DNA of 64,000 bases from Cnuella takakiae (GTDB lineage: Bacteria; Bacteroidota; Bacteroidia; Chitinophagales; Chitinophagaceae), in NCBI RefSeq assembly GCF_001953305.1, contig NZ_MTFE01000010.1, positions 2,980,772-3,044,771 of the forward strand, in the 5' to 3' direction. The first letter of the stretch is position 1. Each line of letters begins with the position of its first letter. Positions 3,347 to 60,527 of the stretch are shown here, piece after piece. Below the pieces are notes generated by a model. It searched no databases. It was not told where the DNA came from and saw nothing but the letters and a program-made list of their open reading frames with translations. The translations under genes were made by a program, and so were the position numbers.

Positions 3347-3376
3347 GAAGTTTGGAGTTTGGAGTTGGGAGTTAAG
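3347..3376 (+). repeat. Tandem word repeat GGAGTTT after malQ
   Basis: Starting 3 nt after the malQ stop, the 7-nt word GGAGTTT/GGAGTTG recurs three to four times. It belongs to the class of intergenic word repeats discussed in the findings. No coding potential is seen. Confidence 0.6.
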
Positions 3377-7913: not shown

Positions 7914-8330
7914 TTAGAACTGCTCGAGGCCAGAGAAGAAGAAAGAACCTTCAATCTGGGCGTTCTCGTCGCTGTCGGAACCATGTACGGCATTCTCACC
8001 TACAGAGGTTGCAAACATCTTGCGGATGGTACCTTCTTCAGCCTGGGCGGGGTTGGTAGCGCCAATAAGGGTGCGGAAGTCTGCAACTGCATTTTCTTTT
8101 TCCAAAATGGCTGCGATGATTACGCCGCTGCTCATAAAGGAAACCAGCTCACCGTAGAAGGGACGCTCTTTGTGTACTTCGTAGAAAGCACCGGCTTTCT
8201 CTTCGCTCAGCTTGGTTTGCTTCAGGGCTACCACGCGGAAGCCGGCCTTGATGATTTTATCCAAAATAGCACCGGCATGGCCATTACGCATTGCATCGGG
8301 CTTGATCATGGTGAATGTTCTGTTGCTCAT
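7914..8330 (-). CDS. ndk: Nucleoside diphosphate kinase
   Basis: Transfers the gamma-phosphate of ATP to nucleoside diphosphates through a phospho-histidine. The 138-aa chain begins [14 protein letters not shown] and contains the active-site His116 in NAVHGSDS, the NDK signature. The ATG at 8330 is supported by TATCTTTG 18 nt upstream; a longer in-frame ATG at 8405 falls inside the upstream repeat and is rejected. It is divergent from nrnA. Confidence 0.96.
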
Positions 8331-8348
8331 AACTGTGTTGTTGGGGCG

Positions 8349-8356
8349 CAAAGATA
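8349..8356 (-). promoter_or_regulatory. -7 element TATCTTTG of ndk
   Basis: Exact Bacteroidota -7 consensus on the minus strand, 18 nt upstream of the ndk ATG. Confidence 0.75.
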
Positions 8357-8586
8357 GCGGGAAGACAGGAAAGACGGAAAAGACAGTAAAGACGGAAGTC
8401 GGCAAAGTCCGGAAAGACGGTAAAAGCAGTAGAACAGGGAGCCCCTTTTAAAGCCAACATATCCTGTTGCCTCTAGGTTTAAATATAGTCCAAACAGGTA
8501 AATTCTTTCCTTACTTGTCCGACTTCCCTGACTTCCCACTTTCGCTCCCCTCTTTCCCGTCTCTCCGGTCTTTCCGGTCTTTTCCT
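8357..8586. repeat. Purine/pyrimidine word-repeat island between divergent promoters
   Basis: The left part (8357-8420) repeats GGAAAGACGG-like words and the right part (8508-8586) repeats the complementary CCGTCTTTCC-like words. Each part starts exactly at the -7 element of the gene it precedes (ndk and nrnA). A 20-nt stretch at 8379-8398 recurs exactly at 43572-43591. Confidence 0.7.
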
Positions 8587-8594
8587 TAGGTTTG
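8587..8594 (+). promoter_or_regulatory. -7 element TAGGTTTG of nrnA
   Basis: Exact TAnnTTTG 10 nt before the nrnA ATG, so the transcript leader must be very short. Confidence 0.7.
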
Positions 8595-8604
8595 CCAACT
8601 CTTT

Positions 8605-9627: not shown

Positions 9628-10599
9628 ATGCGATTTTCCAGCCAGCTATTCAGCGTTGTAGCAATTGGGCTTGCCGTATCGGCCTGTAACAGCGTAGACT
9701 ACAAAAAAACCAAAGGCGGTATGCCCTACCAGCTTTTTTCTTCCGAAAAAGGCGATAGCGTGAAGCCCGGCAGCATCATCAAAATTGCTTTTAATCAGAA
9801 GATTAAAGACAGCACCATGTATCCTCCGGCAGGCCAGCCTGCCACACCGGTATATTTCCAGGTAACTCCCGATAGTCAACCGTATGATATTTCGGAAGTG
9901 CTCACCCATTTGAAGGAAGGCGATAGCGTTTATGCCGTTCAATTGATCGACACCTTTATGGCCCGTATTGCCAAAAATCCCCAGTCGCAGCCCCTGCCTC
10001 CGCAGTTTAAAAAAGGCGACAAAATCGTTACTACCCTGAAGGTGATGAAAGTATTCCAGTCGCCCCAGGAAGCCCAGGCCGATGAAGCCCAGGAGCGCAT
10101 GAATGCATTTAAAAACGATAACAAAATACAGCAGCAGCTGACTGCCGACCAGAAGAAGATCCAGGACTACCTGACACAGAACGGCATCCAGGCCCAGAAA
10201 GTTGGCCTGGGTACTTTTGTACAGGTGCTGACGCCCGGTGCTGAGCCAAAAGTTACCGATGGCAAATATGTAAGCCTGAAGTACAAAGGGCAGACCTTTG
10301 CCGGTACCGTTTTCGATACCAATATGGACAATAGCTTCAACCACACCGATCCCCTTGGTTTTGTGGTTGGCGGCAGCCCCATGATCAAAGGTTTTGAAGA
10401 AGGCATCAAGGGTTTGGGTAAAGGCGCCAAAGCACGCCTGTACATTCCTTCGCCCCTGGCTTATGGTGCCCAAAGCCCTTCACCCGATATCAAGGCCAAC
10501 GAAAACCTGATCTTCGATATCGAAGTGCTGGACGTAACCAACCAGGCACCAACGGCTAATATGCAGCCCTCACCGAATAATGGCGGTGCTGGTCGATAA
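9628..10599 (+). CDS. FKBP-type peptidyl-prolyl isomerase lipoprotein
   Basis: Prolyl isomerase predicted to be anchored in the envelope. Residues 1-20 form a lipoprotein signal with lipobox AVSAC and Cys20 as the modified residue. Residues 21-200 are a Lys/Gln-rich segment with partly FKBP-like character (KPGSIIKIAF, KEGDSVYAVQL). Residues about 205-310 are a clear FKBP domain (DGKYVSLKYKGQT, GGSPMIKGFEEGIKGLGKGAKARLYIPSPLAYG). The first half may be a degenerate second FKBP domain. It is cotranscribed with nrnA by spacing, and a hairpin terminator follows at 10634. Confidence 0.88.
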   Translation: MRFSSQLFSVVAIGLAVSACNSVDYKKTKGGMPYQLFSSEKGDSVKPGSIIKIAFNQKIKDSTMYPPAGQPATPVYFQVTPDSQPYDISEVLTHLKEGDSVYAVQLIDTFMARIAKNPQSQPLPPQFKKGDKIVTTLKVMKVFQSPQEAQADEAQERMNAFKNDNKIQQQLTADQKKIQDYLTQNGIQAQKVGLGTFVQVLTPGAEPKVTDGKYVSLKYKGQTFAGTVFDTNMDNSFNHTDPLGFVVGGSPMIKGFEEGIKGLGKGAKARLYIPSPLAYGAQSPSPDIKANENLIFDIEVLDVTNQAPTANMQPSPNNGGAGR

Positions 10600-10661: not shown

Positions 10662-10800
10662 TTTAGCCCGTTTTTATCCAATAATCTATGTGATTCCTGT
10701 TCCCTTTTACAACCATTGCCCACGAGGGCACCACCACTACCTATCCAACCCTATGAAAGACCGCAACCATCCATTATAGGTTTCAGTCGAATGAAAACAA

Positions 10801-10830
10801 AAACGCACCCCACCAGGTGCGTTTCGTTTT
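10801..10830. terminator. Second hairpin terminator, convergent region
   Basis: AAACGCACC (10801-10809) pairs with GGTGCGTTT (10816-10824), followed by CGTTTT; an A-rich stretch precedes it. Confidence 0.7.
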
Positions 10831-11038
10831 AATAGTTAGATCGATGATGTTTGTACAGATAGCGAAGGAAAGACCACGGACTACGGACGACAGACAACAA
10901 CAGAACGCTATAGATTTTTTACAATAACACAAAAGCTAAGTATAAATGCTTTATTGGAATCCGTGGTCCGTCCACCGTGGTCTGATGTCCATCGACCCAC
11001 TTCCCTCGTCCATAAACCATGGCCTGCCCTTCGTCTCT

Positions 11039-11866
11039 CTATCCCTTTAAACAAGCCATCAGTCTGATCGCCTCCATGGCTTCCTTTACGTCATGCACCC
11101 GGAGCATATGAGCACCTTTCATCAGGCTAATGGTATGCAGTACGGTGCTGCCATTCAATGCCGCATCGGCAGTGATGCCGAGGGTGCGGTGTACCATGCC
11201 TTTCCGGGAAATGCCAATCAGCAGCGGTTTGTCCAGGTGCTGGAAATATTCGATGCCATTCAGCAGGTCGAAATTATGGCGCTGTGTTTTGCCAAAACCA
11301 AAGCCCGGGTCTACGATGATGTCTTTAATGCCCAGGTCTTGTAATGCCTTGAGCTTAAAATTGAGGAAATCAAAAACATCCAGCACCACATCGTTGTACT
11401 GCGGATTTTGCTGCATCGTTTGCGGATCGCCCTGCATGTGCATCAACACATAGGGCACGTCTAAAGAGGCGACCGTGGCAAACATTTCCGGGTCGATGTT
11501 GCCAGCGCTCACATCATTGATGATGGAAGCGCCTGCTGCCACAGCTTCGCGGGCCACGGAAGCGTAAAAAGTATCTGCCGAAATAACAGCGTCCGGAAAA
11601 CGGCGGTGTACGGCATCAATGGCGGGCAAAACCCTGGAAGCTTCCACATCCGGCGACACCCTTTCCGCTTTAGGCCTGGTGCTTTGTCCGCCCATGTCCA
11701 AAATGGTTGCGCCCTGCTCCAACATGGCTTCTGCACGTTGTAAAACCGCATCGATGGTGCTGGCCCTTGAATCGCTGAAAAAGGAATCAGGCGTGGTATT
11801 AAGGATGCCCATGATCAGGGGCTGGTGGAAGGAGAGGAGCCGGCCTTTGCAGTTGATGCTATGCAT
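11039..11866 (-). CDS. folP: Dihydropteroate synthase
   Basis: Condenses 6-hydroxymethyl-7,8-dihydropterin pyrophosphate with p-aminobenzoate in folate synthesis. The 275-aa TIM barrel shows the family motifs in order: GILNTTPDSFFSD, GATILDMGGQSTRP, SIINDVSAGN, and DPGFGFGKTQRHNFDLL. The second loop reads FFSDSRAS where many family members have a glycine-rich SDGG. It is divergent from the DUF1599 operon. No other folate gene adjoins it; purU lies about 46 kb away in this window. Confidence 0.95.
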   Translation of the reverse strand: MHSINCKGRLLSFHQPLIMGILNTTPDSFFSDSRASTIDAVLQRAEAMLEQGATILDMGGQSTRPKAERVSPDVEASRVLPAIDAVHRRFPDAVISADTFYASVAREAVAAGASIINDVSAGNIDPEMFATVASLDVPYVLMHMQGDPQTMQQNPQYNDVVLDVFDFLNFKLKALQDLGIKDIIVDPGFGFGKTQRHNFDLLNGIEYFQHLDKPLLIGISRKGMVHRTLGITADAALNGSTVLHTISLMKGAHMLRVHDVKEAMEAIRLMACLKG

Positions 11867-34061: not shown

Positions 34062-34081
34062 ATAATTTGAATGCTCTAAGT

Positions 34082-34125
34082 TGATTGTTCAAAGTCGGAA
34101 TAGTTTGCACGACTTTGAACAATCA
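34082..34125 (+). repeat. 16-bp inverted repeat after the sugar MFS gene
   Basis: TGATTGTTCAAAGTCG (34082-34097) pairs with CGACTTTGAACAATCA (34110-34125), 12-nt loop, no U-tract. It may be a stem-only terminator or stabiliser between the MFS and ROK genes. Confidence 0.65.
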
Positions 34126-34172
34126 GCTCTGGACTTCTAAATAGCCATAAAACTCAAACCACTGAAACAATA

Positions 34173-41941: not shown

Positions 41942-42010
41942 CAATGTGCTAATTAGCTGATGTGCTAATGTGCTTTTAGCTAATTGGGTAATCAGCACAT
42001 TAGCACATTG
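41942..42010. repeat. TGTGCTAAT word-repeat hairpin between iscX and the KdsC-like gene
   Basis: Words TGTGCTAAT, TTAGCTGA and TTAGCTAAT repeat; ATGTGCTAATGTGCT (41960-41974) pairs perfectly with AGCACATTAGCACAT (41994-42008). Confidence 0.75.
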
Positions 42011-42015
42011 GGCAT

Positions 42016-42260: not shown

Positions 42261-42376
42261 TTAATGTGCTGATTAGCTAATGTGATAATGTGCTAAAGAA
42301 GAATGCAGATTTTGCAAGATTGAGGAAATTTCTGTTTAATCATTAGCACATTAGCACATTGGCTAATTAGCTAATT
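42261..42376. repeat. Second TGTGCTAAT word-repeat hairpin between ferredoxin and iscX
   Basis: The left arm 42261-42296 and right arm 42338-42376 are built from TGTGCTAAT, TTAGCTAAT and complements. TAATGTGCTAA (42286-42296) pairs with TTAGCACATTA (42343-42353); the outer parts pair with few mismatches. Confidence 0.75.
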
Positions 42377-43556: not shown

Positions 43557-43650
43557 GTCGGAAGAGACGGGAAAGACAGTAAAGACGGAAGCGATTACCG
43601 CTTCAAAAGTTTTTCTTTGCGGTCTTTTCCGTCTTTCCTGTCTTCAGACT
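43557..43650. repeat. Second GGAAAGACGG word-repeat island, divergent region
   Basis: Purine arm 43557-43591 and pyrimidine arm 43619-43650 face each other around a small AAGCG/CGCTT hairpin. The stretch 43572-43591 is identical to 8379-8398. Like the first site, it fills the space between divergent genes. Confidence 0.75.
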
Positions 43651-49735: not shown

Positions 49736-49825
49736 TTTTGGATTGGTGATTTCGGATTTCGGTTTTTGTTTGCAAAACAGGAACATTACCTGCTTTCCCT
49801 TCCTAAATCCGAAATCACCAATCCA
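49735..49825. repeat. GATTTCGGATTT inverted word repeat between ogt and cdd
   Basis: 21-bp perfect stem 49739-49759 / 49805-49825 containing GATTGGTGATTTCGGATTT, 45-nt loop. It begins within the ogt stop region and ends 3 nt before the cdd stop; it may terminate both convergent genes. Confidence 0.8.
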
Positions 49826-60453: not shown

Positions 60454-60527
60454 AAGTCCAAAGTAAAAACTAAAAAGTCAAAAATCATTCCTTTCAGAAC
60501 GATGGCTTTGATTTTTACCCTGGACTT
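60454..60527. repeat. AAGTCC/AAAGTAAAAAC word-repeat hairpin between thrS and infC
   Basis: AAGTCCA (60454-60460) pairs with TGGACTT (60521-60527) and GTAAAAA (60463-60469) with TTTTTAC (60512-60518); AAGTC/AAGTAAA words repeat in the left arm. It may separate thrS from infC expression. Confidence 0.6.

Follow-up and report, generated by a model that had tools for sequence, protein, structure and literature searches.

Facing arrays of degenerate heptamers in the intergenic spacers of Cnuella takakiae read away from gene edges whatever their word

Results

An island of facing heptamer arms between an FKBP gene and folP

The window analyzed here, a 64,000-nt stretch of the Cnuella takakiae genome, contains a spacer bounded by a gene for an FKBP-type peptidyl-prolyl isomerase (9628–10599, + strand; PF00254) and by folP, which encodes a member of the dihydropteroate synthase family (11039–11866, − strand; PF00809). 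A tandem/inverted-repeat scan of this spacer revealed a left arm at 10871–10898 (+ strand; AGACCACGGACTACGGACGACAGACAAC), made of 27–28 nt of degenerate GACNACR (GAC-N-A-C-R) heptamers, and a right arm at 10960–10983 (− strand; TCCGTGGTCCGTCCACCGTGGTCT), where the same word group lies on the opposite strand. The facing arms pair over 24 nt with 79% complementarity and are 65 nt apart. The sequence between them (10899–10959) is AT-rich and no canonical terminator was found in it; a separate canonical terminator hairpin is located outside the island, at 10799–10821. As read from the sequence, the right side continues in degenerate form at 10984–11025 (− strand), adjoining the folP stop codon, in the sister vocabulary GACNATR (GTCCATCG, CGTCCATAAACCATGGCC).

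The spacer contained 19 inverted 7-mer pairs versus 3.5 in dinucleotide shuffles (p = 0.005), and 5 direct pairs versus 2.2 (p = 0.11), the latter not being significant alone because the words are degenerate. Folding z scores of the island were −3.8 and −6.1 on the two strands. The presence of a heptamer arm facing an inverted arm confirmed that 10872–10990 is a tandem-plus-inverted island, as the initial annotation had described it. Its GACNACR word forms 48 triple arrays in the C. takakiae genome.

All four islands named in that annotation were inspected, searched for repeats, tandem as well as inverted, and compared with dinucleotide shuffles, and the other three proved to carry the proposed design of repeated and then mirrored words only in part. 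The GGAGTTT array at 3347–3376 (+ strand) is a single arm that begins 2 nt past the malQ stop codon and reads away from malQ; the repeat scan found no inverted partner for this tandem. The element called at 34082–34125 consists of inverted words that pair over 19 bp around a 12-nt loop (34079–34128; AGTTGATTGTTCAAAGTCG), a clean hairpin (95%) with no tandem. Between infC and thrS, AAGTCC/AAGTAAAAAC words and their inverted partner (60454–60527) combine a weak 7-nt tandem with a 21-nt inverted pair at 81%, and are weak in both respects. Since these three islands differ, “tandem plus mirrored” suits the class better than each single case.

Further islands were detected in the same window. An arm of the 9-mer GGAAAGACG lies upstream of ndk (8360–8424, + strand) and an inverted GGAAAGACG arm lies upstream of a DHH-family gene (8521–8582, − strand). 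Within 8310–8604 a GGAAAGAC island directly precedes the conserved ndk motif TATCTTTGCG, probably the ndk promoter, which relatives retain with a different sequence upstream of it. Two islands of the 8-mer GTGCTAAT have both arms (41943–42013 and 42262–42376), GGAAAGACG words recur with a TCTTTCCCG partner at 43571–43644, and in a GGATTTC island (49748–49825) GATTTCGGATTTCGG faces CCGAAATCACCAATCC.

Heptamer arrays are abundant in spacers and fall into recurring vocabularies

The genome-wide survey covered 1.66 Mb of the 5.7-Mb genome, some stretches of which were N, with approximate gene calls from a simple codon-usage script; 7-mer pairs were counted in the first 1.26 Mb, which has 769 spacers. 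There were 3135 direct pairs (920 in dinucleotide shuffles) and 5487 inverted ones (1581 in shuffles), i.e. 3.4–3.5 times the shuffle expectation, and 91 spacers carried both signals, versus 47.5 if these were independent. When arrays were sought de novo, by periodicity alone and with no word definitions, 184 intergenic arrays of period 7 were found in the 1.66 Mb (versus 1 in shuffles), together with 15 of period 8, 15 of period 9 and none of period 5, 6, 10 or 11. Shuffled spacers, which the initial annotation had named as the way to refute such islands, thus fell far below the genome in both pair counts and heptamer arrays. Consistently, 6-mers matched themselves at lag 7 798 times in spacers, 48 times in coding DNA and 35 times in shuffles. 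In the lag spectrum of the spacers a sharp maximum stands at 7 and recurs at the harmonics 14, 21 and 28; lag 9 has a lesser series and lag 8 a weak one. The lag-7 peak is absent from coding DNA and shuffles.

In a held-out 400 kb, unused for word definition, the 74 kb of spacer had 126 arms, whereas the 325 kb of coding sequence had 13 and the reversed spacers 16. Depending on the vocabulary, the number of arms per Mb was several-fold to more than 100-fold higher in spacers than in coding DNA. Density was 2.16 per kb in convergent spacers, 1.66 in codirectional and 0.66 in divergent ones, and most arrays lay close to a gene edge, their distances to the neighboring genes having medians of 34 and 135 nt.

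It had been proposed that each island has its own word. The 184 heptamer arrays indeed form 75 consensus classes, but these classes fall into about 15 vocabularies, grouped by hand, that recur at many loci genome-wide. Unit identity within arrays decreased with lag (0.64, 0.59, 0.54 and 0.44), as local duplication would give, which lends weak support to the slippage that the initial annotation had suggested. Variation within units was concentrated at certain positions, such as 4 and 7 of GACNACR, in a per-vocabulary test that carries some framing selection bias; the pooled test gave 0.63 versus 0.60. Taken together, the arrays are short tandemly repeated (STRR/heptameric) intergenic arrays in a many-word variant, a classification much firmer than any mechanism. 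The suggestion of one shared design, and probably of one generating process, was borne out genome-wide, with period 7 above all, and extends to same-genus genomes with other words.

The folP–FKBP, thrS–infC and ndk islands, the three islands tested, are missing from the orthologous spacers of same-genus genomes, which mostly hold plain terminators or are short; with FolP identities of 60–68%, these relatives are too diverged to show single insertion events. At other loci, some relatives carry their own word islands, and the arrays are probably lineage-specific with fast turnover. The GACNACR array is found in many phyla. However, among 295 further genomes sampled from the phylum, 5 had a triple GACNACR array and 3 the reversed control word, while in viral contigs the GACNACR count (47) lay between those of the reversed (82) and permuted (21) control words. 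We therefore make no claim that phyla share this vocabulary by descent or transfer. Separately, a distant genome of the phylum (G240, contigs C76 and C83) contains long exact ACGGACA arrays, one of them at a contig end.

The G-rich strand of the arrays is directed away from the nearest gene

Analysis of the de novo heptamer arrays revealed that their G-rich strand was directed away from the nearest gene in 100 cases and toward it in 18. Near stop codons the ratio was 56:13, versus 402:425 in matched control segments, and near starts 44:5, versus 818:337. Within 40 nt of a gene, with periods 7, 8 and 9 counted, it was 92:5, and the held-out 400 kb gave 104 away and 21 toward. In array-free spacers, the strand that leads away from starts is richer in G than in C, with a skew of 0.19 over 50 nt, and the skew after stops is only 0.04; the stop-side polarity therefore cannot be background.

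The same rule governed spacers with two arrays, where a G-rich array preceded a C-rich one in 34 of 35 cases, counted word-free. When words were written in the orientation of the 5′ arm, the word came before the inverted word by 55:4 among pairs of the first set and by 27:1 among held-out pairs. The same order prevailed where the two arms had different vocabularies (21:1 and 18:0, respectively), and spacers with no same-vocabulary pair gave 23:1. Arrays with no inverted partner words were still directed away from the gene (33:5). Because polarity is kept without a partner and across vocabularies, it belongs to each array and the gene edge beside it rather than to a hairpin; because starts and stops of genes show it alike, it is unconnected with transcription. 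We conclude that neither the word, nor the presence of an inverted partner, nor the type of gene end (start or stop) matters for the polarity rule.

The rule concerns the G-rich strand, and GC skew is near zero in several vocabularies (GCTGCAA, GGACCAC, CACGGAT), the GACNACR word likewise being almost without skew. In about 100 kb from each of seven same-genus genomes and one same-order genome, with largely other words, polarity was 20:1. A set of 119 loci, selected in many phyla by a single word and with genes called crudely, gave 53:31 for polarity and 19:2 for order; for GACNACR in other phyla, a strict order of word and then reverse complement was not confirmed (7 versus 5).

Facing arms share a vocabulary but hardly a sequence

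The initial annotation had offered slippage and inversion of hairpin terminators during replication as a possible origin. In this scheme existing hairpins would slip and be inverted by fold-back or template switching, and the second arm would be a copy, later scrambled. In line with such copying, of the roughly 121 facing pairs 82 had arms of a single vocabulary (chance level about 8%), and some pairs, such as those at C1:2932049 and C1:2831286, hold near-identical arm copies. However, facing arms have their vocabulary in common and not their sequence order: ranked against same-vocabulary arms of other islands, an arm's own partner was only a slightly better match (mean rank 0.43, where 0.5 means no preference; p = 0.08), so that arms as inverted copies of each other are weakly indicated at best. 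Nor were T-tracts enriched, TTTT occurring within 12 nt of 24 of 331 arms (7%), compared with 10% of random spacer 12-mers, and arms as intrinsic terminators were accordingly rejected; separate canonical terminators are present in part of the array spacers. Combined with the polarity of partnerless arrays (33:5) and of spacers with mixed vocabularies (23:1), and with the sharing of words across the genome, which copying within a hairpin leaves unexplained, these results speak against an origin by inversion from hairpin terminators, and we regard hairpin slippage and inversion as unlikely.

Selection for regulatory or structural elements at transcript ends, be they RNA hairpins, sites for Rho or another protein, or G-quadruplexes, appears less likely still. 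Facing arms are computed to be able to fold, as illustrated by the z scores of the focal island, the arrays lie near gene edges and their units vary at specific positions, all points in favor of selection. Against this, polarity is alike at starts and stops and is obeyed by partnerless arrays, T-tracts are not enriched, relatives lack the three islands tested, and no regulatory role was found for the repeats of Xanthomonas and Nostoc (Rehm et al. 2015, PMC4692102). Since polarity persists where partners are lacking, folding is not its cause, and since most words lack a GGG run, G-quadruplexes cannot be the general reason. Considering that polarity is independent of word, partner and gene-end type, both hairpin-terminator and transcript-level origins are excluded as general explanations.

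The islands do not accompany the transposase genes of the genome

Being dispersed, intergenic, palindromic, sometimes nested (CACGGAT words surround GGACCAC words at C1:2831286–2831495) and missing from the orthologous spacers of relatives, the islands could resemble a mobile palindromic repeat family of the REP/BIME or MITE type, moved in trans by a transposase, and the genome does encode two Y1 transposases (RAYT-like). However, one of these genes (L098, 1340–2260) has the palindromes CCCACGGTTTCAACCGTGGG and GAAACGGTTTCAACCGTTTC on both sides, which belong to a family recurring elsewhere in the genome, and the second (L099, 1280–2140) lies among different palindromes (GTAGGGGTTGAA, CCGCCGGTGCAACCGGCGG, CAACCCCGTAGGGGTTG). 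No word arrays were found beside either Y1_Tnp locus, both being flanked by REPs of another kind, and we rejected a RAYT/REP origin of the islands. Inspection by eye revealed no shared core or ends among the word islands, arm order is not conserved and vocabularies are many, so that a mobile family is largely refuted and improbable as the source.

Other palindromes share these spacers. A REP-like palindrome, TGTCATGCCGAACTTGTTTCGGCATC, is frequent and often paired, occurring in at least 20 of the spacers examined (e.g. C1:4832173–4832432 and 377044–377489). Long inverted arms, CCCCCTGTCCCCCT–AAGGGGGAACTTAGG, stand astride an intrinsic terminator between convergent genes and constitute a different, well-conserved family (e.g. 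C1:2834109–2834284, 2950242–2950424, 4731583–4731754 and 4809259–4809437). Clusters of short perfect hairpins (ACACCTAACAGGTCT–AGACCTGTTAGGTGT, AACCTATAAGGTT, AACCTTCAAGGTT) have a common design with changing stems (e.g. C1:2869126–2869311, 2940059–2940348 and 4611851–4612003).

An enzyme that copies and diversifies the words, the other origin put forward in the initial annotation, was not found: the search for RVT_1 (PF00078) reverse transcriptases was negative in this 99.7% complete genome and positive in control genomes, and the two RAYT-like genes keep company with other palindromes. Ku was not found in the genome either; classical end joining therefore cannot do the joining step, and Ku-dependent end joining was discarded. 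A telomerase-like reverse transcriptase that adds templated words to 3′ ends at breaks, leaving interstitial telomere-like blocks, predicts the facing G-rich arrays, the mixed vocabularies on two sides and the non-identical arms that we observed, but with neither RVT_1 nor Ku in the genome it is very improbable.

Discussion

The polarity rule points to the manner in which a strand is synthesized. The explanation that we favor, tentatively, is that the arrays grow at 3′ ends by slippage-prone synthesis, outward from gene edges. An array would begin as a short word at a 3′ end within a spacer, at a break, a gap or a stalled fork, and would lengthen by reiterative, slippage-prone synthesis that starts on the gene-proximal side and proceeds outward. 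Where both sides grow, a facing pair would result, usually of one vocabulary because both sides may be seeded by the same word stock, and further rounds in the middle would give nested arrangements. The ability of facing arms to form hairpins would then be a by-product rather than a cause, while purifying selection would clear arrays from genes and thin them in divergent promoter spacers.

Several observations count against 3′-end growth. No enzyme or intermediate was identified in the genome, and slippage alone leaves the recurrence of words at distant loci, the preference for 7 and the position-specific variation unexplained. Moreover, the arms are often separated by long stretches (up to 219 nt, the median being close to 50) in which a terminator sometimes lies, something that the repair of a single break would not leave. 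It is conceivable, although we give it little credence, that a word-adding activity other than a known reverse transcriptase extends spacer 3′ ends outward, writing genome-specific 7-nt words. Such an activity would be a bacterial counterpart of interstitial telomere addition, with the word-independent convergent polarity seen here and in other phyla as its footprint. Whatever their origin, the arrays make the spacers of such genomes unreliable for simple terminator or regulatory-motif calls.

Comparison with known repeats

Heptameric spacer repeats of bacteria have been known for decades and, to our knowledge, have no accepted origin. The cyanobacterial STRR that Mazel et al. are said to have described in 1990 are reportedly degenerate tandem heptanucleotides in Calothrix spacers, with several words per genome; they are cited, without that name, in PMC4692102. 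The C. takakiae arrays are alike in these respects, and their facing arrangement and word-independent polarity are apparently not described there.

In Gramella and Elizabethkingia, the intergenic TAACTGA direct repeats known from Beggiatoaceae, Cyanobacteria and some Bacteroidetes occur among other heptamers, and Gramella/Aequorivita relatives have shorter spacers without them (MacGregor 2015, PMC4679880). The C. takakiae arrays resemble them as intergenic heptamers that in some genomes are mixed with others; however, TAACTGA is a single exact word that in most cases immediately precedes starts, and only one indirect case is recorded in the main genome, whereas the C. takakiae words are degenerate and paired. 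According to work cited in the same study, heptamers are the most abundant repeat class in most genomes, and slippage has been proposed. REP/BIME elements with RAYT transposases are also dispersed intergenic palindromes (Di Nocera et al. 2013, PMC3733652), and the C. takakiae genome itself has RAYT-like genes with adjacent REPs. By contrast, the word islands have no conserved 20–40 nt unit and do not lie beside transposase genes.

The closest resemblance is to the GGGAATC and GGGGA(C/T)T heptameric repeats of Xanthomonas and Nostoc, which use one word per organism (Rehm et al. 2015, PMC4692102). Both sets consist of dispersed, intergenic, heterogeneous heptamers, and both include convergent inverted pairs, of which there are 70 in Xcc and 75 in Xac (PMC4692102). 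The G-rich strand is directed away from the gene in C. takakiae and is placed alike in all three organisms of that study, Nostoc included. Depletion between divergent genes, reported for Xanthomonas, is shared, and the distances to neighboring genes are nearly the same: on average 28 nt to the 5′ and 160 nt to the 3′ neighbor (PMC4692102), compared with our medians of 34 and 135 nt. Unlike those repeats, whose GGG units can form G-quadruplexes, most C. takakiae words contain no GGG run, and the genome has about 15 vocabularies, 8- and 9-mers, and nested and mixed islands. What is new relative to the Xanthomonas and Nostoc repeats is thus the coexistence of many vocabularies in one genome and a polarity rule shown to be independent of the word.
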